A stretch of 64,000 nt of DNA from Thermothelomyces thermophilus ATCC 42464 (Eukaryota; Ascomycota; Sordariomycetes; Sordariales; Chaetomiaceae): assembly GCF_000226095.1 (NCBI RefSeq), contig NC_016472.1, positions 2,914,001 to 2,978,000 on the forward strand, given 5' to 3'. Under the pieces are notes generated by a model, which made no database searches, was not told where the DNA came from, and was given only the letters and a program-made list of their open reading frames with translations. Made by a program: the position numbers and the translations under genes. This document shows positions 1 through 58,891 of this stretch, piece by piece; the stretch's first letter is position 1, and every line of letters starts with the position of its first letter.

Positions 1-410
1 AGAAGCAGGACCAGAAGAAGGCGACCAAAGACAAGTCCAATGTTACCTGCTACAACTGCGGAAAGAAAGGGCATTATAAGCGAGAATGCCGGAGCCCGAA
101 GAAAGAATGGAAGCCAGTCCCTGGAAAAGAAATCGCGGACATTGACGAAACTACCAAGAACGTCACCGAAGTAGCAGCTACGAGCTACGAAGACAAGGAT
201 AGTGACACGGACAGTCTCGGACACGACGGCAACGGTAAAGACGAACAAGCACCGTACTCCGAACTGGTCACTGTGGACCTAGAGACAGGTCTTGCCGAAT
301 GGGACATGGCAGGAGAGTATACGCCGCCAATTTCGATTCTCCCAACCTTGAGGCAGTGGGGTTTTACAGTTACGCAGAGGCGGGATGGATCGTGGACAAC
401 CGACACCTAA
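1..410 (+). pseudogene. gag C-terminal part with CCHC zinc knuckle (copy A)
   Basis: The frame opens before the window. A complete CX2CX4HX4C zinc knuckle (CYNCGKKGHYKREC) is read at 48-89; in retrotransposon Gag this binds genomic RNA for packaging. It is followed by an acidic, Ser/Thr/Asp-rich linker and then a stop after the segment ending near 409. The equivalent knuckle in copy C (62870-62911) has lost its first two cysteines, so copy A keeps the best version of this motif here. The end of Gag proper cannot be fixed, because protease and pol probably continue in the same ancestral polyprotein. Confidence 0.85.
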
Positions 411-2340
411 GGAATCGAAAGACCCGGACCTAATGCTCTATTCCTCTAGGAACGAATCGAATGGTACCGTAACGAAGTTTTCCGACTTAACACGGAACTG
501 CGCGAACGGGATGGGCGCTTGACTCGACTCGCCTAGTAGAGCGATAAGATGAAGGACGAAATGAGGGAACTCCGACGTATCGTGGAAACCATCAAAGGGG
601 AACAGCCTGTGACATATGATGGGCCCGATAGCTACGCCGAGCACTTTGACGATCAGCAACTTAGCCACGACGTACGGAACCCCGAATACCAGTTCATGCG
701 CGCGAACCGCGGAAAAGACGAACGTACGTGGGAAAGCTACTGGAAGAAACACTCTTATATTAGCACTGGAGTACCTATGGTCCACGTACAATGGGAAGGA
801 TTTGGGAAAGAATTCTAATACCTCCCGGGCGACGCCACGCGACTGTACCCTCGACATGAGGCACATGCGCAAGTGCCCTGGTTCCAGTGTGTGGCACACG
901 AATGCCGATACCACTTCCGCGACAAATTCGAAAACAACCACTGGCCGACCCGACAGGAGAACGGGAACGGAGGCTTGTGCCCTGTGGAATGGGTCTACGA
1001 TGTAGGAAACAGAGCGGCCGAATTGCTCTGGAAGATCGAAGCCCGCGATCTAGAAAGCATCACGATAGTTCCAAGACGAGCCTGGCCTAGGCACTGCGGA
1101 ACCGGACGAGACATATAGGACTTGTGCTAGAGCAACGATTGCCTCTATTACGCGGACGAAAAGAAATTGCGAATTCGGGAGCTTTAGATGAAGCTATGGT
1201 ACGCACGATGGAAAGCGGAACGGACCTAATGGTAGGAAGCCGCAAGCACTCAATGGCTTACGGAAATGAGCACGATCGACGAAGCTGCTATTAGCCGAAC
1301 AACCGGAGAGGTTAGCACTGACCTGGGAAACGGGTCAGGGCCCTTCGAGGGGCCCGGAAACCATTAACGCCCGCGTAGCGGCGAGTGGTAGCGCAGTATA
1401 GGAGGAACTAGCGTAAGAGACTACTATACCGAGACCTCCCGGCAGAAACATGGGAAATCGCCGTAATCTTTGGACGACGGCGGCAAGACAAGCGGCTGTG
1501 GATAACAGCATAGTGGAAACAGCACGAAATGCTCGCACTAGTGGACAGTGGAGCAGAGATGAATCTGATTTCGCCGACACTGGTAAATCAGCTACGGATA
1601 CCCTGGAGAATGAAGCGGAAGCATAGCATAGTCAAAGGGCCATTTCCGACACAATAGGTACGCAGGGAGACCGAACCGATCGACATCACTGTGGCAGGGA
1701 AGACTATAGCAGTCGTATTTAGTATCGTGGACATGGGTAACGACAAAGACATGATATTGGGGTTACTATGGCATGAAGATTACGACCCGGACATTAGCTG
1801 GAAGAATGGTGGCCACCTGCGACCCCGAACGGAGTTGTATTCGACCAGCGAGATGGGGAGCGCGCAAGGATCGCGAGCGGACGATGCTCAGAGAAAGGCA
1901 TGTCCTACGGATCCACCGCAAGAGACGGACAGTGGCAGGCAGACCACTACGGACTCTGGAAGAAGCGGTATAACGATACCGACGTTGCGACAGGAGGAAC
2001 GAGCTGAATCGCCGATAGCTGTTCTCTCCGTTGACGAATGCGGAGCACTGCAATGGGAGTAGTGGGTTGAGACAGGAGAAATCGCCAGTATCGCTATAGA
2101 CGGAACCAAGTTCGCATACTACTAGAAAACCGAGAGACGAGACAAGACTAGGGAAGTACCGAAGGAATACGAAGGACACCTAGCATTCGAACCGAAGCAT
2201 CTGGAAGGATTACCAGAACACAGCCCATAGGATCACGAGATCAAGCTTAAGGAAGGAGCACGACTGAAGTTCTTCAAGATTTACTATACGAGCTAGACAT
2301 AGGACGAAGAACTTAAGCGATATTTGGAGGAGAACCTTTG
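411..2340 (+). pseudogene. gag-pol linker and aspartic protease, RIP-broken (copy A)
   Basis: This stretch is open in short blocks separated by TAG/TAA. Blocks at 549-818 and 873-1118 read as a hydrophilic linker with a Cys/His-rich patch near 880-960 (CX4C followed by His), a possible C2H2-like finger between Gag and protease. The protease core LVDSGAEMNLIS is read at about 1538-1575; DSGA is the catalytic Asp motif of retropepsins. The segment at 1691-2062 continues the protease domain (VDMGNDKDMILG, equivalent to the family's ILG flap-end motif). The same blocks are found in copy B (60300-61590) and copy C (63390-64000). The product is certainly broken. Confidence 0.75.
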
Positions 2341-3691
2341 AAGAGGACATATCCGCCCGTCGACATCGCTAACAGGCTACCTAATCCTGTTTATGCCCAA
2401 GAAAGACGGAAAGCTATGGTTATACGTCGACTATCGGCAACTTAACGAACAGACTGTGAAAAATCGATACCTGTTACCGCTGATCTCACGGCTCCGAGAT
2501 CAGTTAGCAGGAGCCCAATATTTCACGCGTCTTGACTTGCCATCGGCCTACAACCATATACGGATCAAAGAAGGCGACGAGTGGAAAACGGCCTTTAGGA
2601 CACCTTATGGCCACTACGAGTACCTCGTTATGCCATTTGGACTTACGAACGCGCCGGCAACGTTCTAAGCCCTGATTGATCAAGCTATCCGACCCTTTCT
2701 CGACAAATTTGCGGTATGTTATCTCGATGATATACTCATCTTCTCCAAGACGATGGACGAACACCGGAAGCACGTAAAAGCAGTGCTGGACGCGCTGCAC
2801 GCGTACAAGCTATTAGTTAACAAGGGAAAGAGCGAATTCCACGTCAGGAAAACGGTGTTTCTGGGATACGAGATATCCCCAGGACAAATCCGGATGGAAC
2901 CTTCAAAGGTTGAAGCTATCAAGAATTGGCCACGACCGACGTCAGTCACGGAAATACGAAGCTTCATCGGATTTGCAAACTTCTACCGGATGTTTATTAG
3001 GAACTTTGGAGCGATCGTACGACCTTTGCACGAACTCACCAAGAAGAATGCTGAATTCCAATGGGAAGAACAACACGAGCAAGCATTCACGCAGATCCGG
3101 AACGCCATTACCGAAGACCTAGTATTGGTACTACCAGACCCTAAGAAGCCATTCGAGGTAGAAACGGACGCTTCAGACTACGCCATCGGAGGACAATTGG
3201 GACAACGAGACGAACAAGGGAAGCTACATCCTGTAGCCTTCTTTTCAAAGAAGCTCGATGGACCACGTCTCAATTATCCGATCCACGACAAGGAACTACT
3301 TGCGATTGTCGAAGCTTTCAAGGAATGGCGACTATACCTCAGCGGCACGATTGAACCGGTACAAGTATATACGGATCACAAGAATTTGCGATACTTCATG
3401 ACGACAAAGGAACTCAACGGACGACAAATACGATGGGTAGAATTCCTCGCGGAATTCAACTTTGAGATCCGCTACAAGAAGGGCAAAGAGAACGCACGAG
3501 CGGACATCTTAAGTCGACGAACGGATCACACGGAAGGACGAACGGGAACGACACCACCGTTGTTCAAGGAACGGACAGACGGAACGCTGCATCACGAGAC
3601 GCAGACACCCGTGGAAGATGATCTACTCGACTCGTTCCTCGAATGTTGCGCAATCTTTCGAGAAGAAAGGATCAACGAGGCACAGTATTAA
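2341..3691 (+). pseudogene. pol: reverse transcriptase and RNase H (copy A)
   Basis: From 2393 the frame reads the RT fingers/palm ([44 protein letters not shown]). An in-frame TAA after TF at about 2666 replaces the usual Gln and fits CAA-to-TAA RIP. The catalytic YLDD box is at 2720-2731. From 2753 the thumb/connection and the Ty3-type RNase H follow, with ETDASDYAIGG near 3160 and the DHKNL motif further on; the frame ends with the usual tether (NARADILSRR) near 3500. A TAA closes this block at 3691. RT copies element RNA into cDNA and RNase H degrades the template. The remaining breaks are few enough that the element probably died recently. Confidence 0.93.
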
Positions 3692-3706
3692 GTAGCACCC
3701 GGACCA

Positions 3707-5113
3707 GTGGTACCTGACGGAGTGGAAGAAAAAGATGGGAAACTCTGGTACCGAGGTAAAGCATACATCTACGACAAAGATCAACAGCTGCGGATGATTC
3801 GAGAACTCTACGAGTCGAAACTTGGAGGACATAAAGGAGTCACGAAGACTGTCGCACAAGTCAAGAAACACTACGACTTTCCACAGTTAACGGCACGAGT
3901 TAAGGAAGTTATACGGAGTTGCGACATCTGTAATCGAAGCAAAACGGCACGACACAAGCCGTATGGGCTACTTCAGCCACTGCCAATAGCTGACAAACCA
4001 TGGAGTTCAGTTACGATGGACTTTATTACGAAGCTGCTAGAATCCAAGGATATAGCCATAGGAGTGACCTACGACAGTATTCTTACTATAGTAGATCGCC
4101 TGACTAAGTGGGCATACTTCTTTCCCTACAAGGAGTCCTGGACAGCGGAACAGTTAGCAGACGTGATCTATCGGCAAGTTGCATCAGTGCATGCTTGGCC
4201 GCAAGAATGGATCACCGACAGAGACACCAAATTCGTATCGAAGTTCTGGCAAGCGTTAATGCAACGATTAGGCGTTAACAGTAAGCTGTCAACGGCATAT
4301 CACCTACAGACTGACGGACAAACGGAGCGACTGAACCAAGTTGTCGAGCAGTATCTCCGTTCTTACGTCAACTACTAGCAAAACGACTGGGTCATGCTGT
4401 TACCAATAGCACAACTCGCCTATAACACGACGCCGACAGAAACGACCAAAGTCACACCGTTCTTCGCGAACTACGGATACGAAGCAGACCTTAGGCAAGG
4501 ACCAGAAGTCATAGTGCCGAGAGCAGCAGTCAAAGCGGAACAAATGCACGTACTGCATGAAAAGCTCAAAAAGGAACTCGAGTTTGTCAGAACCAGAATG
4601 AAGAACTACTACGACAAACACAGGCTCGAGGGACCTCGCCTAGAGAGGGGAGACAAAGTCTACTTAATTGCACGGAACTTACGAACCAAACGACCAAGCA
4701 CGAAGCTGGACTTCAAGAAGGTCGGACCCTTCGTTATCAAAGAACAAATTTCGACATCTAACTACCGACTATCGTTACCGTCATCTATGCGACTACGGAC
4801 GGATGTTTTTCATATTTCACTTCTCGAACCAGCACCAAAGAGCGCCAAGGTTGCTACGCACATCGAAGCAGAGGACAAGGAAGAAGAATGGGACGTTGAA
4901 GAAATTCTGGATTCACGTATTATTAACGGAGAACTGCAGTACCTGGTCAAATGGCTTGATTTTGGACCAGAAGACAACTTATGGGAACTAGTCAAGAACC
5001 TGAATTGCCCTGAGAAGCTAGAGCAGTTCTACCGGCGGAATCCTGACCGGCCACAAGAACCAGCTCCAAAGCCCATTCCCCGACAGAAAAAGAGGGGAAC
5101 CCGCCAGAATTAG
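3707..5113 (+). pseudogene. pol: integrase and chromodomain (copy A)
   Basis: The N-terminal zinc-binding HHCC module is visible (GGHKGVTKTV, CDICNRSK). The catalytic core shows MDFITKL, ITDRDTKFVSKFW and TDGQTERLNQ, giving the D, D and E residues. A single TAG at 4376-4378 (after SYVNY, before ND) splits the frame, where the family has Gln. The C-terminal region ends with a chromodomain at about 4887-5060 (EEWDVEEILDSRI, LQYLVKWLDFG, NLWELVKNL), which in chromoviruses directs integration to marked chromatin. The stop at 5111-5113 lies 25 bp from the stop of the opposite-strand ORF at 5139, so the two genes meet tail-to-tail. Confidence 0.93.
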
Positions 5114-5138
5114 GACCGGGATCTAACCCGATCGACTC

Positions 5139-5669
5139 CTAATCAAGCACGTCAAAAGTACCCAACGCCTGAGCCTGACCCGTGAGGGTCTGTGTCTCCG
5201 ACATCGGCGGAGGAGTATCTGGTTCTTCCTCTTCCTCTAGACGAGCTATGCCACGACGAAAAACTTCGGCACCACGATCGCGCAGGGATTGCTATAAACG
5301 ACGCAATCGACTTAAACGGCTTAGCGTCTGAGCAAGCAGCGCCTCGGTCTCGGCAATCTCTTTCGAAACCTTCTCCTGCTCCGACAAATTCGAAAGGACT
5401 AAGACAGTTAGCAACCCAAGACTACGAAGGAAAACTACGAGGAACCTACAGGCATCCGCAACGTTCGGACCACTGCACTTCTTGCCCATGCGAACACAAT
5501 TTTGGCACTTGTTCAAACCCTCCATCATCACACAACGCTTCCGCGGCTTCGCATTCCAACAACGCTCGCAAGGCATGGCGACTTCGTAACCCTCTCGCTC
5601 GATCTTGATCGCAATAGCGTGTCGTTCGCGCTTGAGATCGCGACGATTCCTGGGAATACGATCAGCCAT
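5139..5669 (-). pseudogene. Antisense accessory ORF of chromovirus: Zn2Cys6-like cluster protein, two exons, one RIP stop
   Basis: Read on the minus strand from ATG at 5669. Residues 34-65 hold six cysteines with spacing CX2CX8CX8CX2CX6C (starting CERCW, ending GKKCSG), close to the fungal Zn(II)2Cys6 binuclear cluster but with eight rather than six residues between the second and third Cys. Basic residues (KPRKR) lie inside the loop. Translation then runs through a hydrophobic stretch that is better read as an intron, 5399-5449 (51 nt): donor GTAGGT, branch GCTAAC, acceptor TTAG. Splicing joins exon 5450-5669 to 5139-5398 in frame. The second exon is rich in Leu/Glu/Arg heptads, as in dimerising coiled coils, and has one TAG at 5292-5294 where CAG is expected. 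Spliced length is about 159 residues. DNA binding is inferred from the cysteine pattern only. It is not part of standard gag-pol. Confidence 0.72.
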
Positions 5670-5784
5670 GACGAAAGGAGGTTAGCGGAAGAAGGACGTT
5701 ACCTATTGAGAAAGGGGATGTTGGTGGTATTTGAAACAAGTCATGAGAAGCTTTCGGGTCGAAAGCCCTGAAGAGGGGGCATCG

Positions 5785-6236
5785 TGTCACGAGCTAACCA
5801 TATACCGCGACCCGGTGGGGTGCAGCAGGCCGAATGAGCCACCAATCAAGAAGGACACGAAGCGAGGCTGACACGGATCGCTAGGGAGCGCAGGCTACCA
5901 CGAGCGAACAATTGCTAAAAGGGGAAAGATAGCGGAGGATAGCTAGCTACCAAAGGCGATCCAAAGACAGGATCGAAGAAGGCTATAAGCGATCAGGAAG
6001 AGTATATATACATGTAAATAGTCACTCGTTATGGTGGACTCTGGGAGTTCACCAGTGGTAACAATCACAATCACAGTACTCATACCAAGCATTGCTGATT
6101 ACTGTGAGAGACAACTCTAAGTGTTGTTATGAACCCTTTGGCTTCACCGAATCCCTCAGACGACCTGCCTGCTTGTCCCGCTTCACCCACCTCCGTCTGG
6201 ACCCTTTCAGAAGAAGTCTGAGTTGGGTTCGTCACA
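5785..6236 (+). repeat. 3' LTR of chromovirus copy A (452 bp)
   Basis: It starts TGTCACGAGC and ends GTTCGTCACA, and is preceded by a purine tract (GAAGAGGGGG) fitting a polypurine primer. It aligns end to end with 58405-58863 (5' LTR of copy B). With copy C (61592-62039) only the 3' half aligns, from AGTCACTCGTTATG onward. A TATA-like stretch (AGTATATATACATG) lies near 6001-6014. It directly abuts the second gypsy element at 6237. Confidence 0.9.
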
Positions 6237-6289: not shown

Positions 6290-8400
6290 TCCTAGACCTT
6301 CTCATCCTTCGAACTCTCCTTCTAAGAAACTATCCTGATAGGAACTATTTGACTACGCTAAGAGTGTCCTAAGGAGGCGTGGTAAGATGCTTTATATACC
6401 GTAAGCATAGGTGTCAGATCCTAAAGACTAACTATAAGAAGATCCTCTATAGGAGCTAGAATCGCTACTTAGATTTACTAACGATTATAAGCTATATCAA
6501 GCCAAACCTGACAATTTCGGCGCTAATAAGGAAATGATAAGCTAGTTAAATAGCAAGATAGATCTTCGATTTAACTAGTTAAAGGAACGAACCGATTGCT
6601 TTTTTAATAAGACTAAGGGAGCCATCTATAAATTGTTATAGTAGCTTGAAAAAAGTATTGTTAGGATAGATTATAGCTTTATAAACTACCTAAAGGGAGT
6701 CGAAGATCGACTTTATAGCTGCCTAGAGAAGGACGTTCTAGCTATAATAGAACCGATATTTGATCGTATTAAGGATCTAGAAATATATATGTTATAATAT
6801 AGAAATATACTTGGTCGGATGGCAATATAGATAAAGGAAATAGTCGATATAATATATAGTCAAGATGGCGAAAACGATAGTTAATTGCCTAGTTATCGGC
6901 GATCTTCCTTTGATCTTATTAGACTTAGCATTATAGTAGAAGAAGTATAATAAGTTAGCGATCTTACGGAAGATATATAATATGATAATAGTGCTTTCCC
7001 TATACCTCCTAAGGGCGTTAGTATTAGCTATTGTTATAATCTTGGCCGCCCTAAATGTATATAGTCTTTATATAAAGTCCTATACTTTGTAACTAGTAGT
7101 AGCAGAGGTAGAGATCCTAATCCCTTAGATTCTAACGAAGATAACACCCTATCTAACTATTGCTAACCTTTAAGAGACTGGAATCTAGGATGCCGTCAAG
7201 GCGCTCTATACCCTGGCAATAGTAGTAGCAATGGTAAAGGTAATAACGGCAGTAATAATAGCGATAATGGCAATAGATATTATGGATACAAGTCTATATA
7301 CGATATTACTATAAGTATATAGAGTCGCTTAGACTTTAAGATCAAGAGGGACGATATTAGCTAGTTCGATCCTTCTTTTCCTAACCTATATTCCTTAGGT
7401 ATTATTAACAATAGTAAGAATCTAGTATTTACCGATGTCTACTGCTTTGCTAACCGTATTGAAACCTTCCTAGAAAGTAACCTTAATGGCAGCGTTAAGA
7501 CGTAGATTCTATCCTTCTTCTAAACCCTTCTTGGCAGCCTAGCTATTATTTAGTAGACTAATAAATTAAACGGCTCTATATATGGATAATTACGCAAATT
7601 AGGTCTTCGAGCTATTATAGATCGACTATAGGAATGCTTTATACCTAACGCTATAACTACCACTTGTAAGTTTAATAAAGCTAGTCTACGTTTAAAGGAT
7701 ATCGTGAAGGACGAGCAAGCGCTTAGTTTCTTTGTTTAGAAGATGCTTTGTTAGGCGTACTTAATATATATACTTAACGAACGTAACGATAACTAGTAAG
7801 GAGTTATAGTTTAAGTCTAGTTAGCTATAGACCTCTATATTAAGTAGTATTTAGATTTTTCCTAGCGACACTCCTTACTTAGCACCTATATATAGTATAT
7901 TAAGTAGTCTTGATCTATTATTTTAGCGGCTACTTTTGACCGCTATCTATATCTATAGAAGAAGATATCCATAAATAGCAAATTAAAGTCTCCTAGAGCT
8001 AAAAACAGGGGGTCGTATAAGCCTATATACTATAACGCTAATCGACCTTAACAATTTAGCTATAGATATAATAAGCCTCTAAGATATAATTAGTGTAACC
8101 ACGAATTTGAATGTAACCATAGATTTAACTATAATTGCCGGTTTGATCACGATTACAGATTTGACTATAACCGTGACTAGGATCGCTATAATTAGGATTG
8201 CCATAAGTAGGGCAATCGTAGCTAAAAGCAGGTCAGATTTGGCAAGGACGACTACTAGCAAAAGGAATATCACGACCGTGCTAACTTTACTAAAGAAGCT
8301 AGCGATAGCTCCAAGCCGGATCAATCTGACACGTAGTTAGCCAAAAGTGCCCCTAAATCTAGATCTAAATCTTCGGGTAGCGACATTAGTATTATGTACC
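6290..8400 (+). pseudogene. gag-like region of second gypsy element
   Basis: No frame longer than about 80 codons survives. The order and position before protease, plus Asn/Ser/Gly-rich repeats (7200-7270), indicate the gag region. A tract near 8060-8330 is rich in Tyr/Asn/Arg/Asp codons in one frame and resembles the low-complexity tail of Gag. No intact zinc knuckle could be read. Nearly all stops are TAG/TAA. The N-terminal limit is not certain because the 5' LTR is missing. Confidence 0.5.
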
Positions 8401-11252
8401 TCGTTCTAGACTTATAACTAACTTGCTACAAGTGCTATAAATCCTTTAACTTGTATATCGAACTATATACTTATACTAAGCGATGCTATAGAACTAGTCC
8501 TCTTCCTTCTATCTGTAACTACAAAGCTAATCTTACAGACTTGGCTCGCCATACCTATGGTTTCTATAATACTACTCTAGAGATACGAAATGCTCTCTTC
8601 CGGCATCTAAAGGCATGCGAAAACGCTAAATCTGGTAACATTCGCTACCTAGTAGGAACTCCTAATAGGTAGTTAGATCTACCTGCTTCGCCGCTAGAAA
8701 ACGTGTACCAAGCTATAGACACGCTACCTATAGACATTACGGCAAAGGCATACCAAGTTAGGGACGTACCTCCTAGGCGTATGCCTGACCGCCACGGTTT
8801 ACCACTAGGATATACTTATCTATACGTTAGGGTATATTACAAACCTATAGATCGCGAAGCAATGGAAGTGTACCTAGATCTAGGCACTAGCCGCTCCCTG
8901 ATTGACCGTACTTTTCTATAGTGATCAAACTACCAAATCAAACGACGTAAGGGCAGAGTCAAAGGTATAGAAAACACTATATTAAGCCTTAACGAATAGG
9001 CGTCTTTCGATATCTACTTGCTAGGTATAGAAAACGGTACTCCTACCCTAGCTAAGTTTACCTATACGGTGTAGGTTGTCAACTCTCTGGCACCGAATCT
9101 TCTAATAGGTAACAAATTCCTAGATTCGTATGACGCGAATATAGACTACTATCGTAAGGAAGTCAAATTATAGTTATTCGAGTTCTGTCTTCCTTTTTCC
9201 GTATATATATACTCTATACCCTACATACGGAAGGTCAAAACCACTCGCGAAATCACTCTCCTGCCTAACTAACGGGCAATGGTACCTATCAAATATAAGC
9301 CTCTCCTAATAGGTCGTGCCTTTATATTTAACTTAGCTTACGTAGCCGTCTGTAACTTTGTTATAGATATAAAGACCCTAAAGGTAGTGCCTATCGAAAA
9401 TACTATATAGGGAACGTTACGTATCTTAAAGAGGCACCCTATTAGAAGGATCAAAGAAATGGAAGATAGTAGTTACTTTGCCTATTTATAGAATACTACT
9501 TTCTATATAGTAGTAATCACTACTACCATCTTAATAATAGGTATGCCTACTGCCGTAATAGACGTTAACCTTACAAAACTCGCCAATTAGTGTAACGTTA
9601 TACCGGTCAATGCTTCCTTTGATTTGAACCGCTATTCGGGCATAATCCTTAAAGGTAGTTATATCCCTATAAAGCTACCTATGACTATAGCCTTATTTAC
9701 AGCCTCTAACGACGCGAATTCGGATACTCCTATTAGCGACTTCGTCTTCTAACTTGCCTAGCAATCTTTACCTTTTCTACCATAGGATATTTCGCTAGAA
9801 GCAATTCTAAGAGCCGCTAATAAAGTTACTAGCGAAGCGGAATATAAACCACGCGTGCCTAAGAAGCATTCCACATTAGGATTAAAGATATTAGGGTCCC
9901 TACCTAAGATCGTTACTAACAACAGCGTCTATATATACGCAGGTAACGTAAAACTGGCCAAGAAGTTCGCTAACTTAGTTAACGGATTCCTATAACTCTA
10001 GAACGACGCTAGTCTGATTAATATTCTGTAGAACGAGTAGATAAAAGTGCTATTTGTAGAAGGCTAGTAATACTAGAAAGTACGCTCCCGTATATATCTA
10101 TTAAGCCAGAGGGACAAGGAAGTCCTAGATAAAACCTTTGACGCCCTCTATTAATAGGGCAAATTACGGTTCGTAAAGAACGTTACTCCTTTCGCCTATC
10201 CTGTTTTCGTGGTCTGGTATACTATAAAAGGCGTTGTAAAGGGCCGTGTCGTCATTGATCTATATAGTCTTAATAAGGTTACTATCCTTAATAACTACCT
10301 ACTACTATTATAATTAGAGATTATTATAGCTTTATATAGAAAGAAGTTTATTATAGCAATTAACGTTATATTATTTTTCCATTAATTTAGCATATATCCT
10401 CTGTATTGAGACAGATTTACGCTAATCAGCCCTTACGGTCTAGAACAGCCGATCGTAGCGCTTATAGGTTACCATAATTCGCCTATATATATATAATGGT
10501 TTATAGATTAGCTATTACGACTATATTCCTCCTATTATCGCGCGTTTATCGACGATATCGTCATTTTCTTAGATATAGCCAAGGATTATATACGGCACTT
10601 AAAGACGATCTTTAGCCTATTCTAGAAAAAAAATATCGCCATCTTACCCACTAAGTCATATATTAGCTACCCAAATATAGAACTACTTGGCTTTCGTATA
10701 AACAGTCTTAGCCTTACTAATATAGATCAACACGTTAAAGTATTTAAGTAGTTATCGTTTCTATATACGTTAAAGGCATTAGAATAATACTTAGGCACTA
10801 CTAGTTTCCTATAACACTTGATTCTATACTATGTAAAGATCGCCGAGCTGCTCTAGAAACGCAAAACTGACCTACTTATATATAGCCGTAAAACTAGCGA
10901 ACTAGAAGTAGAAAACCGTACTAGGAAGATAGGCTATTATAGCCGTACTTCCTTTGACCTAACCGAACAGGAAAAAGCGTCCTTTGCCGCCTTACAAGAG
11001 GCCATTTATCATGAGAACCCGACTATCCTCTACCACTTTAATCCTAACAAGTAACTATATATTTAACTTAACGGCTATTTAGAATACAGATTTAACGTTA
11101 TAGTCTTCTATACTTACAATAGATATAACTAGCGCCTAGGCAACCCTATCCTAGCTAACCAAGTGCTACTAGTAATATTATTATTATTAGTCCTATACCA
11201 TTATGCTAATAAGCATGCCAGAGCCTCTCTAGTTATATACAAAGAAAACCGT
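8401..11252 (+). pseudogene. pol 5' part: protease, RT, RNase H N-terminal half (second gypsy)
   Basis: A short Cys/His segment (SICNYKANLTD, HLKACENAK) at 8510-8630 precedes the protease. VYLDLGTSRSLIDRTF at about 8865-8920 fits an aspartic protease DTG/DSG loop with its Thr or Ser replaced. RT is read through stops: KGVVKGRVVIDL near 10230, YNYLLPL-like motifs near 10290, and AFIDDIVIF at 10541-10567 with both catalytic Asp intact. The RNase H region follows and stops abruptly at 11252, within the LINE target-site duplication. The reading resumes at 16413 (LSRLLTKA). Many TAG/TAA codons make it non-functional. Confidence 0.82.
11224..11252 (+). repeat. LINE target-site duplication, left copy (29 bp)
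   Basis: This 29-bp stretch (CCTCTCTAGTTATATACAAA...) matches 16384-16412 except at four positions, all C/T or A/G transitions as RIP produces. The RNase H reading of the host element continues across the second copy, confirming that the repeat is duplicated target DNA. Confidence 0.85.
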
Positions 11253-11749
11253 ACCTAATAGGCCAGATAAAAACCTCTATCCCTCCTTTAATGCCTAATC
11301 TAGAATACTAATACACTACAAAGAAAAGGAGAAGTGGCCAGAATGGCCCTAAAGAGGCCTTCCTTCCCGGTCTAGCCTTCTTGCAAGGCAGTATTCCGGG
11401 AGCCTCCCTAGGTCCATTAGCTACCGTAGAACCCTCCTTGCCAAACGATGGTTACGGGCCCCTATACCCCGCAAAACGAGGTCTAGGTCCCTTTGCGACC
11501 GTATTTCCCAGGATTCCCACGTTCGGCTTCTTGGTGGGTTCGGGCACTATACGACTAGGTGCTCTATAGTTTCCCTCCCCTGGCCATAGGCACAGTAAGG
11601 GGTACTGATCCCCAGGACTTGAACCCTAAAAAGGAAGTCATAGAGGCTAATAGCCCCTATACGGGCCTGTACTAGTAGGGAGCTCTAGGCCTTTGTTAGG
11701 CCCTAGTGCCTTTATAGGCCTTCCCCTATAAAAACCAGGCACGGGGGGT

Positions 11750-14726
11750 CCTTGTCTAATATATGCTATATCCTCCTACCGGCTTGGTCGGCCCTTTAAC
11801 GGTTGCTCTAGCTGGCTAATACGGCTATTTCCGTAGCCTATAGCCTTCTTTGTAGGGTCTGTAGGGGAGGTCGACCCCCTCTATAGCCCTCCTAAACCTA
11901 CTGCCGGACCGTTAACCTTGCTACCTCTAGGGCTATAGGCTTCGGCTCCTCGCCCCTTGCCCTAGCCCTTCTCTTCCGGAACCTCTAGCTTAGCCTATTA
12001 TAGGCCTGCTAGATAAGGGCCCTTGTAGGGACCTAGGAGGCCCCCGGACCTACCCCGGTCTGTAAGAGCGGTTAGTCAAGTTTAGCTTCGAAGTCAGCTA
12101 GCCTCTTATTAAGATTGAGGTCGAAGGGTAGTACCTAGGCTTCTGTTTCGAGGTACCGGATAGGAGTAGCCTTATAGGCCCTGGTAACTACTCAAAGAGC
12201 CCTATATTAGGCCTTTGATAGTTCCCTAGCAGGGCCTTCTAGCTTACCCCCTGGCTTGGTAGGCTTATAGAAGTTCGAGGCCCTGTAAGCTAGGGCGCTA
12301 TAGATACACTTGGTGTAGACCTTATAGGCCTGTAGAAGGCTAGGGCCCTAGGTCTTTGTAGCGAGCCTAGTTAGGGTAAACTCCTAGGTTTCTAGCTTCT
12401 TAGCTATCTTTGCGTAGTAGGGGCCCCATTATAGCCTCTAGTCTAGCCAGACCCTAAGGAATCTGGCCGACTTCGACGGGGCTATAGTGGTAGTACCCTC
12501 TCTAGGCTGTAGGAGCTCTAGCGGTTGCGATCACTGTTTCCGGCCCCTGTTAAAGTGGATAAGCTCGTACTTTTCCGGGGCAAAAGCTATACCCTGGGTC
12601 TTTGCCTACTGGAGATAGGCCTTCTAGGCCCTCTGTAGTTGACCGTTATAGGCCTCCTCGGCCCTCCCAAAGGCTAGGAGGTTAGTGTTGTCGGCGAAAC
12701 CTATTAAACTGACCATAGGGCTGGCCTGGCGGATAGCCTAGTAAAGGGAGGCTATATAGAGGATAAATAGTATAGGGGAGAGGGGTAACCCTTGTAGGAC
12801 CCTGGCCCTTACTACTATATCCTCCGTTTCCTGGCCATTGAAGTAAAGGATAGCCACCCTATCCTATAGCCACTCCCTAACCTAGACTACTAACCACTTC
12901 GGGAAGCCCTGGCTTTATAAAGTGGCTAGTAGCCGGGTGTGGTTGACAGTGTTAAAAGCCCCTAAGATATTAAGCTATAGGAGGGAGGTAGCTACCTTGT
13001 ACCTCTAGGCCTCCTAGACCTAAGCCGTAATAAGCTAGATAGCTAATTCTATAGACCTATGTTCCCGGTTGCCTATCTATTCGGCCGGTAGAAGCCCGTA
13101 GGCCTCTATAACGGCCGTTACCTTCCGGGCGACTATAGCCTCTAGTACCTTGCCTACTATTAGTAGGAGCGCTATAGGCCTATAGCTACCTAGGGTAAAG
13201 TAGGCCTATAGGGGTTTGCCGGGTTTGTAGAGGACTATTGTCTTGGCCCTTTTGAACCAGGCTAGGAAACAGCCAAGCCGTAGGCTTTCCAAGGCTAGTA
13301 TAGCTAGTATCTGGTAGAGTAGCTGCCTACAGGCCTTTAGCAGACCTATAGGGAGGAGGTCCTCCCCTAGGGCCTTCTACGGGGCCGCTCTAGCTAGTAC
13401 TACCCTAACTTTACCTACCGTAACCCCCTAGCTCATTTTAAACTTCGGCTCCTAGTGGTCGTTCAGATCTAGGTCGTCGATATCTGACAGGTCTGCTTCC
13501 GGGTTCGGAAAGAACTTATCGGCTAGTGCTTTAGCCTTCTATTAATAGGTTATAAGCCCTCCTTCGAAGGCCGGGAGCTTTAGAGGGTCGACCGGTAAGT
13601 GGCTTTATAGCCTTACCTACTGCTCTAGCCTCTATAGCAGGTCCGGCCGGTTAGTTACCTTCTATAGTGTAGCTCTCTAGCTTTTGGTCTTCGTGGCCGT
13701 AATGGTCTTAGCCTAGTCCTATAGGGCCTGCCGGAGTGCTTCCTACGTATAGGGGTTTAGGGTGCCCTTATAGGCCCTCTCTACCTCCTTAGCCCTCTTC
13801 TAGGCCTCTCGAACCTCCTTCGTCCACTACCGAGCTCATTTACTACCTGTACTAGCCTTCTTTGCTAGGGCCAAGACCGTAGCTATCTCTTTAAGGGCCT
13901 CTATAAGCCTGTCAAAGGCCCATAGAAGCTCCTCCGGGCCCTGGAAGACAGGCCTGGCCCGGGCCGATGCCTATCTACTAAGCCGGAGTAGGAGGTAGGC
14001 CGCCTCGGCCCGCGTAACCTCCTTATCTAGGCTCTTCTAGTCCTACCCTTTACTAGCCGGCATGGGCCTATTGGTCCCCTAGAGGGAGACATCTAAGGCC
14101 TATAGGTAGTGGTCAGATTTCTTATGTTCCATAATATCCTTGTAGGTCGCTTCTAGCCTAGCCGAGGCCTAGAATAGGTCTATCGTAGAAGGCCGGCCAT
14201 GCTAGTCCCCCTAGGGGGCCCTAGTAACCTGGCTGTAAGGTATATATAGGTTAAGGTCCTACTAGTCTACAAGGCTAAGGAGGTCCCTGGCCCCCGGGCT
14301 AAGCCTATTAAATAGGTCCTAGACTAGGTGGTAGTGGTTAAAGTCATCTATAAGAACTAGGGAGTAGGTTGGCTGAGGTAGGGCTAGCAGGTCCTATAAG
14401 AGGGCCTGCTCCCCCTTATTATTATAGACTAACTAGAGCTCGAACCCCCTCTCTCCTAGGGCCGGAAAGGTTACCTTATACTAGTTCTCCTCTACCGAAT
14501 AGTCCTACTAGCTAATTAGGAAGCGCTTAGCCACTAGAATAGCCGCCTTGCCCTTAGGCTTATAAACTAGGTAGTATTTCGAAGCCTAGGGGCAGTATAT
14601 TGACCTTATAAACTGGTTGATCTATGGTTCCTAAATGGCTAGTAGGTTATATTTAGCCTCCTCTAGTAGGACCTCGAGGGCCTGTTTGTTACCTTAGGTA
14701 TTCCACTAAAGGATCTTAATTTGCAT
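11750..14726 (-). pseudogene. LINE ORF2: AP endonuclease and reverse transcriptase
   Basis: The likely start is ATG at 14726 (MQIKIL, then WNT after one stop), matching the start of endonuclease domains in this class. Further downstream on the minus strand come AIQEPWIN-like and LVLIDDFNHYH-like motifs (the D/H endonuclease pocket), then RT motifs GLPLSPILF at about 12770-12800 and GFADNTNLLAFG near 12665-12705, where ADDT is expected (Asp-to-Asn by a G-to-A transition). Many TAG stops interrupt the frame. The 3' limit is approximate; an RNase H domain may lie at 11800-12480 but I could not confirm its residues. Confidence 0.8.
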
Positions 14727-14739
14727 TTAAGGTAGCCAG

Positions 14740-16098
14740 GGCAGGGGACAAAGGCACGGTGGTAGTAGTAGGCTCTATAGCCATTCCCCCCTCGGCCGGC
14801 TATAAGAGGGAGGGGGTTCTAGGCTATAGAAAGGAGATATAGGTCTGTCGGGCATTAAACAAGGCACTCCTAGCCGCCTATTAGGCTAGGGTAGGCCTCC
14901 TATAAGGGCGTTTGGCCCTAGTTTGATAGTAGTTATCATCTTCCGGCTGGTTGCTAAACTCGAAGGCTACCTTCTAGTATGGTTGCTCTAATGGTTAGAA
15001 GGTTCGAGGTCTATACTAGTAGGCCTCCCTAGCCCTTTCCTAGGCCTTGACTTTCTTTAGGCAGCCCCTATACTACGCTATATAGGGGCCCCTATAGGCC
15101 GTATACCTACAAGGGAGTTGGTTAGAGTAGGTAGGGCACTAGGCCTCCCTAGCCTTCCCCCCCTCCCTATAGGCCTTTACGCTACAACGGCCACAACAGG
15201 CCGGCCGCTAGCAGTACTGCTAGGTATAGCCAAAGCTCTAACACCTATAGCACTACCTCGGCTCTAGAGCATCCTAGTAGGGCTTGTAGTCTAATACCTA
15301 GGCATCCTAGACTACGCTCTCGTTATAGGCCTTCTAGGCCTCTTTGAGGTCCTATAGGCCTAGAAGTACCGTGGCCTACTTCCTTTATAGGCTCTTTAAC
15401 AGCCGGAACTTGACCGTTTCGATCGAGTGTAGGCCTACGGCCTCTTTAAAGTCTTGTTCGCTGACCCCCTGTAGCTCCTCCTTCCGGACTCCTTTAGCTA
15501 GGACTATATAGGCCCTGCCAACCTCCCTAGCCTCCTCTTTAAAGGCTGTAGCCACCTATCGCTTGTTAACCGAATACTAGTCCTTGGTAGCCTTGTCCTT
15601 AAAGACCACTACTATATCCCTGCTTAGGAGCTTCCTAGCCGTAACGGCTCCCTAGCGGCTAGAAGCCCTGTTAACTACTTAGACTATTTCGGCCGGGGTT
15701 TGGGCTTTAAGGTCCTCCTATAGGCTTATATTCCGTATCGTAACCTCCCGCGAGGCCCGTAACGGCACTACCTTGGCCGATAGTAGGCCTCCCTAGGGGC
15801 CTATTACCCCCTGTTATAAGCCTACGGCCACCTGCGCCTAGGTAGGGCAGGGGGTAGCCTTAAGGGCTTCTTTAAGCCCCTTTTTGACTTCCTCGGCTAC
15901 GAGTTCCTATAGGTTCGGAACTAGGCCTATAATAGTAGTTGTAAGGCCCTATAAGAGCCTATTGGCGAGGTCCTATGCCTTGCCCTATTTAGGGCTTGGC
16001 ACAAGGTTGACTAGTTATGTGATAAGACCCTTTAGTTCTTTGATATCTGGGGTAGGGTAGGCCTATAGTAGGCCCCCCTTTGATTGGTTCGAAGCCAT
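14740..16098 (-). pseudogene. LINE ORF1 (Gag-like) with zinc knuckles
   Basis: The start is placed at ATG 16098 (MASNQSKGG). The upstream frame at 15989-16199 is open but overlaps in another phase. The C-terminal third holds a cysteine-rich block at about 15175-15250 (CYRC, SFGYT, QYC, ACCGRCS, with TAG stops between them) matching the tandem CCHC-type knuckles of Tad-like ORF1, which bind element RNA. Upstream parts contain long Glu/Lys/Ala-rich helices (KKGLKEALKA). It ends just before ORF2, the usual dense packing. Confidence 0.7.
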
Positions 16099-16383
16099 AG
16101 GCCTCCCTACTTGGTGGCTTGGCGGTAGGCTTTAAATCAACGTTACGCTTAGGGGCGCTAGGTGGTCTATGCGGTGAAAATTTTTGACGGGCGTGCAAGG
16201 TGAGGTCGGATTGCGGTCGGGTCCGGTTCTAGCGCTTGCGATGCCTGTTGCACACCCGCAACGGCTCGCGCATGGTTGAAAGTGGTACTGTTAGATAGCG
16301 TTTTTCAAGAGCTTTCTAGCGATGGTAGTTTCGTGAGTTTTGGTGGGGTATTCGCAAAGATGCAAGAGAAGCTTCTTTTGCTT

Positions 16384-16412
16384 CCTCTTTAGTTATATAT
16401 AAAGGAAGCCGT
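16384..16412 (+). repeat. LINE target-site duplication, right copy (29 bp)
   Basis: Second copy of the 29-bp stretch at 11224-11252 (CCTCTTTAGTTATATATAAA...). The four differences are transitions. It sits at the 5' end of the minus-strand LINE. Confidence 0.85.
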
Positions 16413-18400
16413 CTGCTAGTGATATTCTTAAGCCGCCTATTAACAAAGGCTAAGATATAATATAGACCCTCTAAATAGGAAGTTGCTTGTCTGGTCTAGG
16501 CAATTCGCAAACTATATATAATAGTCTATTTAGCGTATATACTAGTCATTGTCCTGACTAACCATACCGCTATATATAGTATTATAGAACAAACTAACCT
16601 AGATACAAGTTCTACTAACTATGCCAATTGTCGCCTAATTAACGCGTCTATCTACCTATTATAGTATAACCTTAAGGTCTACCATCTTCCTAGAAGACTT
16701 AACTTTATACTAGACACGTTAAGCAGATTAAGTGCCTTAGGAGACCCTAAACCTTCTAAATGACTAGATAGATTGGCTGTACTTGATAACGTTTGGTTTG
16801 CTTTTGCCAAGGCACGGATAGATTCTAAACTTAAGGCAAAGTTTGTTAATAGCTATAAGGCTAATGCTAAGTATACCCCTATCATTAAGGATCTTATCAA
16901 AAATAAGCACGTAGATAGGACTATTAATAATAAGGGCATTGCTATTTTTTCGTACTATAGGCTACTGTTTATTCTGATTAACGAGCTCCTCTACTATATC
17001 TGCCTAGATGGTACTTATATATTATACGTTCCGTTAAGCCTTATATAATATATCTTGAGTTTAGCCTACGATAAGAAGCATTACTTTAGAACCAATAGGA
17101 TAATATACAACTTATATAGCATTACGATCGACAGAAAAACTAGGTATGTATAGGATTATACAAAGTATTGCCCTATCTGCCAAGTTAACGCTACCGATCG
17201 TAACCTTCCTATAGATAACTACTAACCAATTCGTCTATCTGATATACTACCTATATAAGTAATTACTATCGACTTTATAGTAGCGTTACCATTAGTTCCA
17301 TTAGCCGGAACGCTATAGCATTTAAATAGGTATAATAAGTTCGACTTAATAATGACCATGTCTTATAAATTGTCTAAACGAACGCTCCTTATACCTGGCC
17401 ACTCTAACTATACCACTACTAACTAGGGCTATATATTAATACGACAACTGCTCCTATCCGACTAGGGAGTACTAACCGCTGTTATATCTGACCGTAACCG
17501 CAAATTTACATCCAAGCTATGGACTAGTATATAGAAAGCGCTAGGTACGAAGCTATTAATAACTACTATATACCACCTATAAGGAGATGGTTTTGTAGAG
17601 CGGAAGAACCAGACGGTAGAAATCGCTTTACACTTTTTTGTCTATAAAAAGCCAGATAACAATTAGACCGCTATACTTCCGTAGCTATAGTAGCATTTAA
17701 ATAATATATATACCGCCTTTATTAGCATATCTCTATACAAGCTACTCTACGGTTTCAAACCAGCTAGACCGCTAGAAGCACTAATAGCGCTATCGAAAAC
17801 GGCATAAGATATCCTAGTCCTACACAAATATCTATACTAAGATGCCTAGATAGCGATAGACTTTATAACGGCCCATACTAAACGTAGATACGATACTAGC
17901 TACCGTGACATCGAATTCAAGCCAGGCAACCAAGTATATCTATACCTCTACCGTAGCTACTACTTGCCTAGATAGCCGTCGCCTAAACTATCCTAGTAAT
18001 ACGTAGGTCCTTTTAAAGTCGTTAAACGCGTTAGCTACCTAGCTTATCGTCTTCGTTTACTACCAAATATAGACATCTATCCTATAATATTAGTAGTATA
18101 CTTATCGTCTATACCTCTAGGCACCGACCTATATAACCATGCTATACCACCTCCTAACCCTATTAAGGATAGCTATACTGATAGCGGTTTAGAATCTGGA
18201 GACAAGTACGAACTCAAACGTATCTAGAACTATAAACTTATATATAACAAGTATAAGTATCTAGTCAAATAGGAAGGACTTGGCTACAAATATAACGTTT
18301 AGAAGACCGACTTCTAACTATACTATATATACAAGATAGTTAATAAATACTAGGTATACTAGGGAGGTCAATTTACTATAGTTTAAGCAACGTAGATCAA
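16413..18400 (+). pseudogene. pol 3' part: RNase H C-terminal half, integrase, chromodomain (second gypsy)
   Basis: Directly after the duplication the frame continues the interrupted RNase H (LSRLLTKA, EVACLVW). The block 16773-17048 is the tether and integrase N-terminus, and CPICQVNATDR near 17170 is the CC half of the HHCC module. The core reads DWGVLTAVISDRNRKFTSKLW near 17460-17525 and GDGFVERKNQTVEIAL near 17590-17625, supplying the second Asp and the Glu. YLVKEGLGYKYNV-like residues near 18255-18300 mark a chromodomain. Stops are dense and mostly TAG. Confidence 0.85.
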
Positions 18401-18531
18401 ACCCCTATATAGACGCCCTTATAAGGAGGCATCAAAGGCTCCCCTAAAAAGAGCTATGGATAGAAAACGCTAAAGTAAGGCTATAGGTAGCTAAGAGGAA
18501 GACATATAGGACACTATAATAGTAAGATAAC

Positions 18532-18663
18532 GCTACTACTTTCCATTACAATGTTACTATAGAAAGAAGGCATATTTAAGAGCTATTTAGAGCTATAGCT
18601 ACTACTTTCTATTACAATGTTACTATAGAAAGAAGGCATATTTAAGAGCTATTTAGAGTTATA
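18532..18663 (+). repeat. Two tandem 66-bp units near 3' end of second gypsy element
   Basis: Units 18532-18597 and 18598-18663 both begin GCTACTACTTTC and differ by two C/T transitions. They lie between the chromodomain and the putative polypurine tract (GGCAGGGGAC, 18690-18699), that is, in the 3' untranslated region of the element. Confidence 0.9.
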
Positions 18664-18700
18664 GTATAGGTACTACGTTTTTTCTTCTAGGCAGGGGACT

Positions 18701-18898
18701 TGATATAGTACGTTGTCTACGGACGTGTCCATTATATAAGGCTAGATAAGATAAGACCTATAGATCTGGCAAACGGGCTAGCAAACGGAGGGTTCTTTGT
18801 TCCTATCCTCTACTTATACAGAGCCATAGGGCTAGCAATCGTGGGAAGGAGACATCGCACTTTTGAACTATTTATAACTTACTAACTTTCTTCTATCA
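18701..18898 (+). repeat. Probable 3' LTR of second gypsy element (198 bp)
   Basis: It begins TGATATAGTACG right after a purine-rich tract and ends CTTCTATCA, giving TG...CA ends. The change from AT-rich RIP sequence to normal genomic composition occurs at its right edge. No second copy is in the window, so the ends are inferred. Confidence 0.4.
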
Positions 18899-20887
18899 AT
18901 TGGAACCATCTTCTATCTATTGGAAACCATCTTCTGTCATGGCCAGTCGTCGCGAGTCCGTTGGCTGGGGATGGCTTTCAAAGCTTGGTCTTCCGGTCCT
19001 AACCCTAAATAGAATACTTCCACAAACGGAAAGCAGTTCGTCACCGGTCTTACGAATACTCCGTTTTGCCTCAGCTCCATTGACACCATAGGGATCTATT
19101 GTCTCGGGACGTCCGGCCGAGAGACAAGAAACGAAGACTGCAATACACGACAAGACAATTCCAGAAAGATCAGCACTGACAGTCAGCAATCAGCAGCCAT
19201 GGTGTAATCCGAACTCCGTTTTCCTGGAAAACCCAATAGTCGGAAAAACCAATAAATGGTTGGGAAAAGTTAACGGCCTAAGAGAAGCTGGATTACTTGT
19301 ATTGAGCCACAACGGAAGCAACAGGGGATACACCAAAACGTGCAGGCACATTTCATGTCCTGTATTGTATGTACTGAGTATCGTTCCCTTACCTGGGATA
19401 CTGTAAGCTGAGGTACAGTACCCAGATCCTGCTGCCTCGGATCCCATCGCACCTGCCCCGGTCCCCCAGGGCAGGACCAATTACGTCTCTCACTTGACGC
19501 AAGGATGACGGGACGGTGATGGCGACCTCGCATGCGCCCGCTCTAGCTCTGATTTGATTGGCAAGCAACTGCCGGGACCATGGCGCCATTGGCTACAGCG
19601 TTCGGGCACCTCAGTTTGTATGTATGCATGTACATATGTACAGTACTGCCACAAGTCGATCTCGGGGGAGCCAATCTTGCATTCTACGCTGCTTACGACT
19701 TCTTCAAGCCCAACTTGGAAGTCACTGCTTGCGGAATTCCATCGCTATACCTTGACATGAACCATGCATATGAAGCGCCCATTGCATATGTACAATACAC
19801 TACGCCGCATCACAGTACGGAGTTAATCTGTACCCTGCCCTCGTAAAGAGTCGACTGTCCATATACAGAGGTAACTGTGTCCCACAAAGCTGTGGAGAGA
19901 TGGGACGGGAACCCCTTGCGGCCTCTTTTTACATGGTATTTCTTCCATTCCTGTTACGCAGTCCACGCCGGAAGGATACATAGGTGAAGGTGCCCCAAGG
20001 TATCTGGAATACTTGTGTTGGTTGGAAACGTACGTAACTCAACCTGAACAACCAGGCTTTTGTGGCCAGCGCCGGTGGCAACAACGAAATACTTTCTAGG
20101 AACAACACGCATGCCCGCTCGCACCGACTTCAAAGCGGGCCATCTTCTCCCTTTCGTCTCGGTTGACATACGGTTAGGTAAGGTATTTCAGCGCGGCTCA
20201 AAAGTCCCACGTTCGAGCGAACATGCTCCCGAGTTCATCGACATCTCTCCCGATTTGACCAGAAAGGCCGGGCATGATTCAGGCCAGGCGCCTACCGTCT
20301 TCGCAATCACACATGACGGGCGGACCCTGACGGTACGTACGCAGCACACGTAGGAGCCATCGCATCGCAGCGGAGACACGAAAGAAACAAAAAAAAGGAC
20401 TACAAGCCCCAATTCGACCGAGACAAAAGTACCCCCGTCTTCCAGGAGGGGAAAACTGTCACACCTGGCTGCAGGACGCTGGAAACCCCTCCCCCTCCCT
20501 TCCTCCCTCCTCCCTCCCTCCCGTGGGACCGAGAGACAAGTAGTAAGTGACTACCTTACCGAGCTGCTGTGTCACCAAACATTGTCAGCCCATGCGGGGC
20601 AGCGGCACAGCCGATAATCATGGTTCGAATGCGGCAAACCGCCTGGGAAGCTCGCAATCGTGTGCACACTGTTGTATCTATACTTTTCTTACGCGGTAAC
20701 ACAACGGCTCTGACCGGGGGGTGCAATCCGTAGCTTAATCAGCTAGGAGAGAAGGGAGGGAATAAGGGGGGCTGGGAAAGAGTGTGTGAGTTCCACTCTA
20801 TGCATAATATGCATAAATAAGTCCAGTCAAGGGGCAGCTCTGCGTGCGCGGGCGCGGGCGCGCCGAGGCACGTCCGATTGAGACCGG

Positions 20888-32252: not shown

Positions 32253-32337
32253 GTTTGCCACAGGAGGGCAAAGTATTTGCTTTCGTCTTCTCGAAGTCGG
32301 CGTTGGGCGGGTGGGCTTTGGTTCGGCATAGGGATGG

Positions 32338-32547
32338 TGCCGAACGCAGTGGGAGCTCCGGGAGCGTTGAAAGCAGTCTACAGCGGGGTGGCTGTACGAA
32401 GGAGACAGTGCCTTGTTAAAGCTATCTACAAAGGAGACAAAACGAGTGGTATTTATAGACAAAGGGACTGGCCAATGCGTTGAACAGCCTCATACAGCTG
32501 TGGCAAACGCGTGGCTAATACGCTTGGAAGCTCCACAGCTTCCGACA
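32338..32547 (-). repeat. Extra (solo-like) copia LTR, little mutated (210 bp)
   Basis: The same 210-bp LTR as at 32553 and 39424, beginning TGCCGAACG on the plus strand and ending CGACA. It is flanked by GATGG at 32333-32337 and GATGG at 32548-32552. It keeps C and G at many places where the other two LTRs have T or A, so it is the least RIP-affected copy. Confidence 0.92.
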
Positions 32548-32552
32548 GATGG

Positions 32553-32762: not shown

Positions 32763-32809
32763 TACCCCCTAGTTAAAGGCAATAGTCGTTTAATTACGCT
32801 TTATAGTGA

Positions 32810-58863: not shown

Positions 58864-58891
58864 CGTTGCTATCACTCCCTTTGTTCTATTA

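Follow-up and report, generated by a model that had tools for sequence, protein, structure and literature searches.

Between the end of pol and the 3′ long terminal repeat (LTR) of a Ty3 chromovirus in Thermothelomyces thermophilus ATCC 42464 lies an antisense open reading frame (ORF), which raises the question whether it is a gene and, if so, what a retrotransposon would do with it. The 3′ part of the element fills the first 6.2 kb of the window, i.e. the whole 64,000-nucleotide stretch of DNA analysed here (position 1 is base 2914001 of contig C1; the genome comprises 38.74 Mb on seven contigs). An original prediction, made from the letters alone, had described positions 5139-5669 as a spliced antisense gene for a Zn2Cys6-like protein. 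Judged by comparison of sequences, the ORF is a real protein gene; with a probability of about 0.58 it encodes a dimeric zinc-cluster regulator of the element's own LTR that is exchanged, together with the adjacent U3 region of the LTR, as a cassette. Using the divergent copy L077 as bait, further versions of the gene were revealed in this genome, and seven are distinguished below: A (the window), B (L077), C (L085), D (L084), E (L083), F (L088), and G (L090). In the window the antisense gene is laid out as follows.

5450-5669, minus strand: antisense exon 1, with the ATG, a basic N-terminus and the six-Cys cluster (Cys codons within 5475-5570); aligned with proteins P0001-P0004, P0007 and P0035.
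5399-5449, minus strand: phase-1 intron of 51 nt, GTAGGT...TTGCTAACT...TTAG; skipped in the gene models P0006, P0007 and P0008 and present at the same place in versions B-F.
5139-5398, minus strand: antisense exon 2, coding for a coiled coil and the start of an acidic tail, with TAGs at 5292-5294 and 5139-5141.
4995-5138, minus strand: 3′ part of the antisense gene, antisense to the end of pol; probable extent, from the alignment with P0007.

The sequence bears out the predicted minus-strand ATG (5667-5669), the spacing CX2CX8CX8CX2CX6C and the placement between the pol stop (5113) and the 3′ LTR (5785-6236). The frame is not open over 5139-5669 as had been stated: the window copy ends at the TAG at 5292-5294 (125 codons, unspliced), a second in-frame TAG stands at 5139-5141, and the gene extends beyond 5139. 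Neither stop is present in the annotated sister copy P0006 (MYCTH_2308322), whose frame continues past 5139. Residues 43-169 of P0007, from another genus, align with C1:2918995-2919399 (window 4995-5399); because this alignment reaches about 4995, the 3′ end of the antisense gene overlaps the end of pol. For version A, 68 sequences (the window and 67 loci) were extracted, of which 61 were kept and seven dropped for length; the divergent L077 was excluded from the column counts, leaving 60 copies. Among these, 237 of 237 CpA, 124 of 128 CpG, 83 of 187 CpT and 33 of 101 CpC columns were C/T-variable, and since the variation concentrates at CpA and CpG, the damage of the window copy fits repeat-induced point mutation (RIP). 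The best database match of the window ORF was MYCTH_2294124 of the same strain.

Copies of the antisense ORF are numerous, with at least 150 matches in the genome (150 of 272 candidates scored). Sister elements lacking the ORF or constraint on it were not found among the copies examined. Because RIP makes transitions, constraint was assessed by counting transversions. In version A, columns with any transversion numbered 7 of 480 in the antisense exons, 6 of 51 in the intron, 8 of 114 in the spacer upstream of the ATG, 22 of 452 in the LTR and 22 of 1035 in pol; such columns were rarer in the exons than in the intron (p = 6e-4) and than in spacer and LTR combined (p = 7e-4), and did not differ between the exons and pol (p = 0.43). 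Within version A nearly all variation consists of transitions and the codon-position counts of transversions are few. Between versions, an excess of transversions at third codon positions was significant (p < 0.05) in 10 of the 20 exon comparisons between pairs of versions, most strongly for exon 1 of D and E (p = 5e-4), exon 1 of C and D (p = 0.003) and exon 2 of D and E (p = 0.004).

Searches of protein collections returned 9, 17 and 60 relatives in overlapping sets that include this species. The set of 60 (E ≤ 0.01, word-limited search, six of them from this species) contained named proteins of Chaetomium (C. globosum), Canariomyces, Corynascus, Staphylotrichum, Parachaetomium and Apiosordaria, and further ones of Verticillium, Apiospora, Thyridium and a Xylariaceae species; a Parathielavia relative came from the search that returned nine. 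Many relatives stem from environmental contigs. A scan of viral contigs with P0017 yielded no relative.

The predicted intron likewise stood up to comparison. Spliced gene models omit it in P0006, P0007, P0008, P0017 and P0039; residue 42 of P0007 corresponds to window position 5451 and residue 43 to 5399, so that the intron is jumped, and frames that retain it carry unrelated inserts of varied length at that single place. Its place and phase are conserved in versions A-F, with lengths of 51, 48, 49, 47, 69 and 47 nt, respectively; in C, D and F the length is not divisible by three, and these frames therefore need splicing. In version A the acceptor TAG is kept in 60 of 60 copies, and the donor is GT in 21 and AT in 39, by its pattern a RIP-type change; the donor reads GTCCGT in version D and AT in version F and in the version-C copy L085. 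The intron is absent from version G, whose protein spans the junction without a gap, in register with spliced relatives (CDVLGVSPAQLRSI versus CDGSGVPVSSLNRI of P0036). Together, the spliced relatives, the intron place common to six versions, the intronless seventh and the six-Cys domain described below support the original prediction of a spliced gene for a Zn2Cys6-like protein, and splicing of the antisense RNA is supported by these sequence comparisons. The odd hydrophobic stretch of the unspliced frame, considered as coding sequence, was rejected: it lies in the intron, as had been predicted, and other versions differ there in sequence and often in frame.

Two observations on the intron may be added. 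In version E (L083, about 1946-1970) its antisense strand carries about 20 T in a row, which looks unusual for an intron of 69 nt. Fifteen intact version-G genes (L090 and its genome copies) match without a gap over 594 nt with the intron precisely absent, which raises the question whether an antisense mRNA was reverse-transcribed and recombined into the element or whether the intron was gained later.

The seven versions sit on one element body. In an alignment of versions A-E (one copy each, nine of the ten pairs), 911 bp of pol showed about zero transversions (identity 0.88-0.95, the remainder transitions) and the chromodomain at most 0.01 transversions per aligned base. Divergence begins at the pol tail (about 5041) and amounts to 0.18-0.34 transversions per aligned base in exon 1, 0.20-0.37 in exon 2 and 0.16-0.31 in the U3; from the TATA-like stretch onward, R-U5 is again similar (identity 0.90-0.96, transversions 0-0.03). 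Version F differed from A by 25 transitions and 3 transversions in 173 columns of the pol end and by 19 transitions and no transversion in 234 columns of R-U5, and version G by 2 transitions and 2 transversions in 93 columns at the start of R; over gene and U3, F and G gave no blastn match to A, though the flanks match. Among the matches listed, 801 bp of gag were 95% identical to the window element at 18 of 18 version-E and 95-97% at 15 of 15 version-G elements, and a reverse transcriptase (RT) stretch 94% at nine version-E elements and 95-96% at 15 version-G elements. A divergent gene and U3 on a near-identical body cannot arise by mutation in place, and replacement of the block can yield it. 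Replacement of gene and U3 together on a common body was found in A-E, with corresponding evidence from the flanks of F and G and from gag and RT of G.

The versions differ in their apparent history. Version G is represented by 15 intact copies with 99-100% identical proteins among 69 matches. In version E, each of the 18 genes that share the top E-type score lies beside an identical U3, at least 40 version-E U3s are identical (40 of 41 matches listed; 40 of 453 candidates scored), and the LTRs are about 7.15 kb apart. On this identity E and G look like recent bursts; version-A copies, among the matches listed, are mostly RIP-damaged. By the similarity of its copies the element body is young within this genome. 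In a tree of 33 proteins, version A falls with proteins of Parathielavia and Canariomyces (100/98), version D with those of Staphylotrichum and Corynascus (98/95), and version E with those of Canariomyces, Corynascus and Chaetomium (100/100); because each of these clades mixes genera, the versions seem to predate the genera, unless horizontal spread accounts for the pattern. In T. thermophilus the DNA that matches a VSQGS-like C-terminal tail common to many relatives lies opposite the codons of the chromodomain, which fits the foreign relatives probably also sitting in elements.

The protein is predicted, from sequence and structure models, to be a miniature Gal4-like factor with a six-Cys zinc-cluster-like domain, a coiled-coil helix and an acidic tail, and with predicted zinc and DNA binding. 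The Zn2Cys6 family (PF00172) follows the spacing rule CX2CX6CX5-12CX2CX6-8C. Among 73 proteins examined, 28 have the exact spacing CX2CX6CX8CX2CX6C and thus conform to the rule, including versions C, D and E of this genome; six are spaced like the window version (CX2CX8C...), one is wider and 38 are partial or damaged. The second Cys spacing deviates from the rule in version A and in version G (CX2CX7CX9CX2CX7C), and the last Cys of the cluster is changed in a version-D copy. The likeness of the Cys block to Zn2Cys6 thus holds for the spacing; the match to the profile is weak, with none above the PF00172 cut-off (best E 0.001, P0036, 18.1 bits versus 21), E ≤ 0.1 in 4 of 31 members and E 3.3 for exon 1 of the window. 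With the structure model of P0017, 8 of 8 Foldseek matches were Zn2Cys6 domains (Gal4, Put3, Hap1, Pho7, Leu3), at weak E-values. The VIA-align list was without Gal4 or Put3, which excludes nothing, and a profile search of PDB sequences gave 12 matches (best E 0.033) with no zinc-cluster protein among them. The P0036 model contains a long helix (residues 69-151, mean model confidence (pLDDT) 85.5), and the tails are acidic and poor in Lys and Arg, with D159 and W160 nearly invariant. The DUF3716 profile (PF12511) also falls below its cut-off on exon 1 of version A (17.2 bits versus 22, E 0.005). It is conceivable that the retrotransposon gene descended from a DUF3716 host gene. PF12511 matches occur at seven places in the genome, six of them above the cut-off, in frames of 265-1260 residues elsewhere.

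The earlier suggestion that the protein could act on LTRs is strengthened by clusters of candidate sites in the U3, to which it would bind. In the window U3 they are the following.

5875-5881, no strand: GGATCGC site.
5955-5962, no strand: GGCGATCC site.
5988-5995, no strand: AGCGATCA site.

GATC(A/G)C clusters in the U3 of six of the seven versions, with three copies in A, four in B, three in C, six in D, three in F and eight in G (count reached by 6, 1, 12, 0, 0 and 0 of 2000 shuffles, respectively). The U3 of version E has none and carries GGTGATAA three times instead (0 of 300 shuffles). The core ATC(A/G)C was defined from A-E before version G was fetched; the U3 of G contains it eight times versus 1.4 expected (0 of 2000 shuffles). 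Enrichment was not significant in the control stretches, namely R-U5 and the antisense gene of D and E and pol of E. In version D three inverted repeats GGATCAC-N10-GTGATC(C/T) with differing centres are spaced at exactly 34 bp (0 of 500 shuffles). Spaced inverted half-sites are read by dimeric zinc-cluster proteins such as Put3 and Gal4. The best repeated inverted pair was significant in D (k = 5 and 6; 0 of 500) and in B for k = 5 only (two GATCA-N21 pairs, 0 of 500), and not significant in the U3s of A, C, E and F; total inverted pairs were raised in several U3s. The inverted-repeat spacing test gave no support to an N12 spacing that had been spotted by eye in version A.

Genome-wide, the version-D repeat pattern occurs 138 + 136 times versus 0 + 0 for the reversed control, a high count that is expected because the sequence repeats in LTRs. 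Of 20 version-D genes (≥ 56% identity; C1, C2 and C3 to 2.77 Mb), 19 have a D-type site within 300 bp and the one at C3:1233002 has none nearby; the pairing was counted by hand from the first 100 pattern places and from genes among 150 of 556 candidates scored, and copies belonging to one family are not independent data points. Where the U3s of B, C, D and F align locally at greater length, they do so only over the first approximately 100 bp, a CCAAT-like part; the sites lie at about 84-205. This first part is 73-84% similar among the four (L077, L085, L084 and L088), upstream of the divergent site array, and the exchangeable block may therefore itself be composite.

In the mechanism that we favour, an antisense RNA would start in or near the U3 and spacer of the 3′ LTR and be spliced, and the mRNA would give a protein of about 190-220 residues with a basic N-terminus, the six-Cys cluster, a coiled-coil helix of 80-odd residues and an acidic tail with a conserved DW. 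A dimer of this protein would bind GATC(A/G)C-type half-sites clustered in the U3 and most likely activate the LTR promoter, perhaps also its own antisense promoter; activation is preferred because the tail looks like an activation domain. During reverse transcription of co-packaged RNAs, one template switch near the end of pol could import a new regulator with its U3, while gag-pol and U5 would be retained, as the mosaic and the standard reverse-transcription scheme lead us to infer. The sequences thus suggest that gene and adjacent promoter form an exchangeable self-control module. Several points weigh against this. Ten of the 20 codon-position comparisons were not significant. A chimeric copy, L089, combines a version-C gene with a version-D U3 and breaks strict pairing; it shows that the block is separable between gene and U3. 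C and D have a half-site in common and the most similar zinc-cluster exons (61% amino acid identity), and L089 may therefore be a tolerated swap. Whether the protein activates or represses is a guess from its tail.

As an alternative, the protein may repress the LTR of its own element, and perhaps also the gene that encodes it, and so limit copy number. Resident copies would then silence elements carrying the cassette they have in common, and new cassettes would escape, as in phage heteroimmunity. The coexistence of several divergent versions on one body, three of them common to several genera, is in line with this, since a negative regulator with its operators would favour rare versions, as are the many identical intact copies of E and G beside the mostly RIP-damaged version-A copies listed. 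We nevertheless consider it unlikely, for the acidic DW tail with little Lys or Arg resembles an activation domain and bursts of many identical copies speak against tight self-limitation. Distinctly unlikely, in our estimate, is that the U3 clusters are host-factor sites and the antisense protein acts on host promoters, in nuclear import or in targeting of the pre-integration complex. U3s do normally bear host-factor sites, CCAAT-like boxes are visible here, L089 joins gene C to U3 D, and the maize Grande GENE23 protein is described as nuclear with its role unknown (in the available part of PMC7264820); by itself, however, a host factor does not account for a site type that varies with the gene version on a constant pol and R-U5, and the spaced inverted half-sites of version D suit a dimeric zinc-cluster protein.

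That the antisense transcript rather than the protein is functional, through double-stranded RNA or interference with the sense RNA, the ORF being a passenger, has precedent in the discussion of antisense RNA as a regulator of plant elements (PMC7264820, in part). Conservation of the protein over 60 relatives, the third-position transversion excess and the placement of the intron make it very improbable. An open frame arising by chance in RIP-altered DNA would agree with the stops in the window copy; we rejected it as having next to no chance of being correct, given the genome copies, the constraint, the relatives, the spliced models, the conserved intron and the intronless version G. Returning to the regulator exchanged with its U3, a wider and more tentative extension, which we rate as possible though rather doubtful, is that an antisense zinc-cluster regulator and its matching U3 site array make up, in chromoviruses of the Chaetomiaceae, a cassette of immunity-like specificity that is block-exchanged between elements sharing one replicating body. 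Rare cassettes would be favoured, escaping regulation or silencing shaped by the residents, and old versions would be kept across genera like incompatibility groups.

How far is such an arrangement known? The protein is like Gal4-type Zn2Cys6 factors in its six-Cys spacing, the coiled-coil helix behind it, the acidic tail and the spaced inverted half-sites (version D U3), and differs in its length of only about 200 residues, its non-CGG half-sites, its Pfam score below the cut-off and its being retrotransposon-encoded; the Gal4-type class has a large middle region, which is absent here. In DUF3716, to which exon 1 of version A is weakly similar below the cut-off, the matches above it lie elsewhere in the genome. 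The immunity region of lambdoid phages, where regulator and operators are exchanged as one block on a common body, is an analogy only and unrelated to the fungal cassette. HBZ of human T-cell leukaemia virus type 1 (HTLV-1) is also an antisense gene, located towards the 3′ LTR of a retroelement, and encodes a nuclear protein; the protein is unrelated and the host element an animal retrovirus. HBZ is mentioned in PMC11963269, and the HTLV antisense promoter in PMC7264820 (both in part).

The original prediction knew of no description of antisense retrotransposon genes; as a class they have been described. The Boty-like elements of Botrytis cinerea carry brtn (Zhao et al., 2011, Virology, as cited in PMC8365987, PMC7264820, PMC4227169 and PMC5987419), a gene that likewise lies antisense in the interval from pol to the 3′ LTR of a fungal Ty3 element with a chromodomain; the citing accounts, in their available parts, leave a zinc cluster, an intron, cassette exchange and U3 sites unmentioned, and no Botrytis or Sclerotinia protein was named among the 60 relatives of the word-limited search. 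Plant antisense ORFs (maize Grande gene23, RIRE2, Retand TRP28) also lie between pol and the 3′ LTR and have a regulatory role proposed, and they differ in their protein domains; the accessible portions of PMC7264820 and PMC11963269 report no exchange of a regulator with its U3. Modular U3 evolution in the Tnt1 superfamily (PMC1838419) resembles the present case in divergent U3 versions upon a conserved coding body, and an element-encoded regulator exchanged with the U3 is unreported in the part of that article available. In the literature searched, outside which most subscription journals lie, neither an antisense gene for a zinc-cluster protein in fungal LTR elements nor regulator-plus-U3 exchange was found described. 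Antisense genes at this position are thus known already, and what is new here is seven versions of antisense gene plus U3 on one body.

That LTR retrotransposons carry antisense genes has been known for years, but not what these genes do; here one has a recognisable regulator architecture, and as candidate promoter sites change with the gene, its function is directly testable in vitro. The larger point beyond the single gene is the joint swapping of gene and U3, and the cassette is possibly a much larger story. If the reading is true, regulator-promoter modules of retrotransposons are exchangeable and correspond, in eukaryotes, to the immunity regions of phages; they would also supply a natural collection of small transcription factors along with the matching sites. 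The relatives also suggest that a number of fungal "hypothetical" or "Zn(2)-C6 domain" annotations are transposon genes.

The assignment of the element to the Ty3 chromoviruses, as predicted, rests on gag-pol with integrase, a C-terminal chromodomain (Chromo, PF00385, E 1.3e-11) and an LTR pair; matches to RNase H and integrase also lie within the first 6.2 kb. The LTRs are 98.9% identical across 453 bp, and the 5′ LTR sits just upstream of the window (locus L080, 4626-5078). Its remaining features are these.

1-5113, plus strand: gag 3′ part (CCHC knuckle) and pol, interrupted by stops; Pfam zf-CCHC, RT_RNaseH, Integrase_H2C2 and Chromo, with rve just below the cut-off.
4394-5113, plus strand: integrase C-terminus and chromodomain, within pol.
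5670-5784, no strand: spacer between the antisense ATG and the 3′ LTR.
5785-6236: 3′ LTR, one of the LTR pair.
5785-6002, no strand: U3 of the 3′ LTR, version A, which would belong to the swapped cassette.
6003-6236, plus strand: TATA-like stretch, R and U5 of the 3′ LTR, near-identical in versions A-E.

Further RIP-damaged fragments from the same element group occupy window positions 58405-64000: a version-A-like LTR (58405-58856, 83%), two gag-pol fragments (59788-61593, 78%; 62823-64000, 87%) and an R-U5 fragment (61823-62039, 95%). In 4-kb blocks, a strong RIP signature (TA/AT 1.4-2.9; CA+TG over AC+GT 0.38-0.75) was found at 8001-20000, 32001-40000 and 48001-64000, alternating with blocks of normal composition at 20-32 kb and 40-48 kb.
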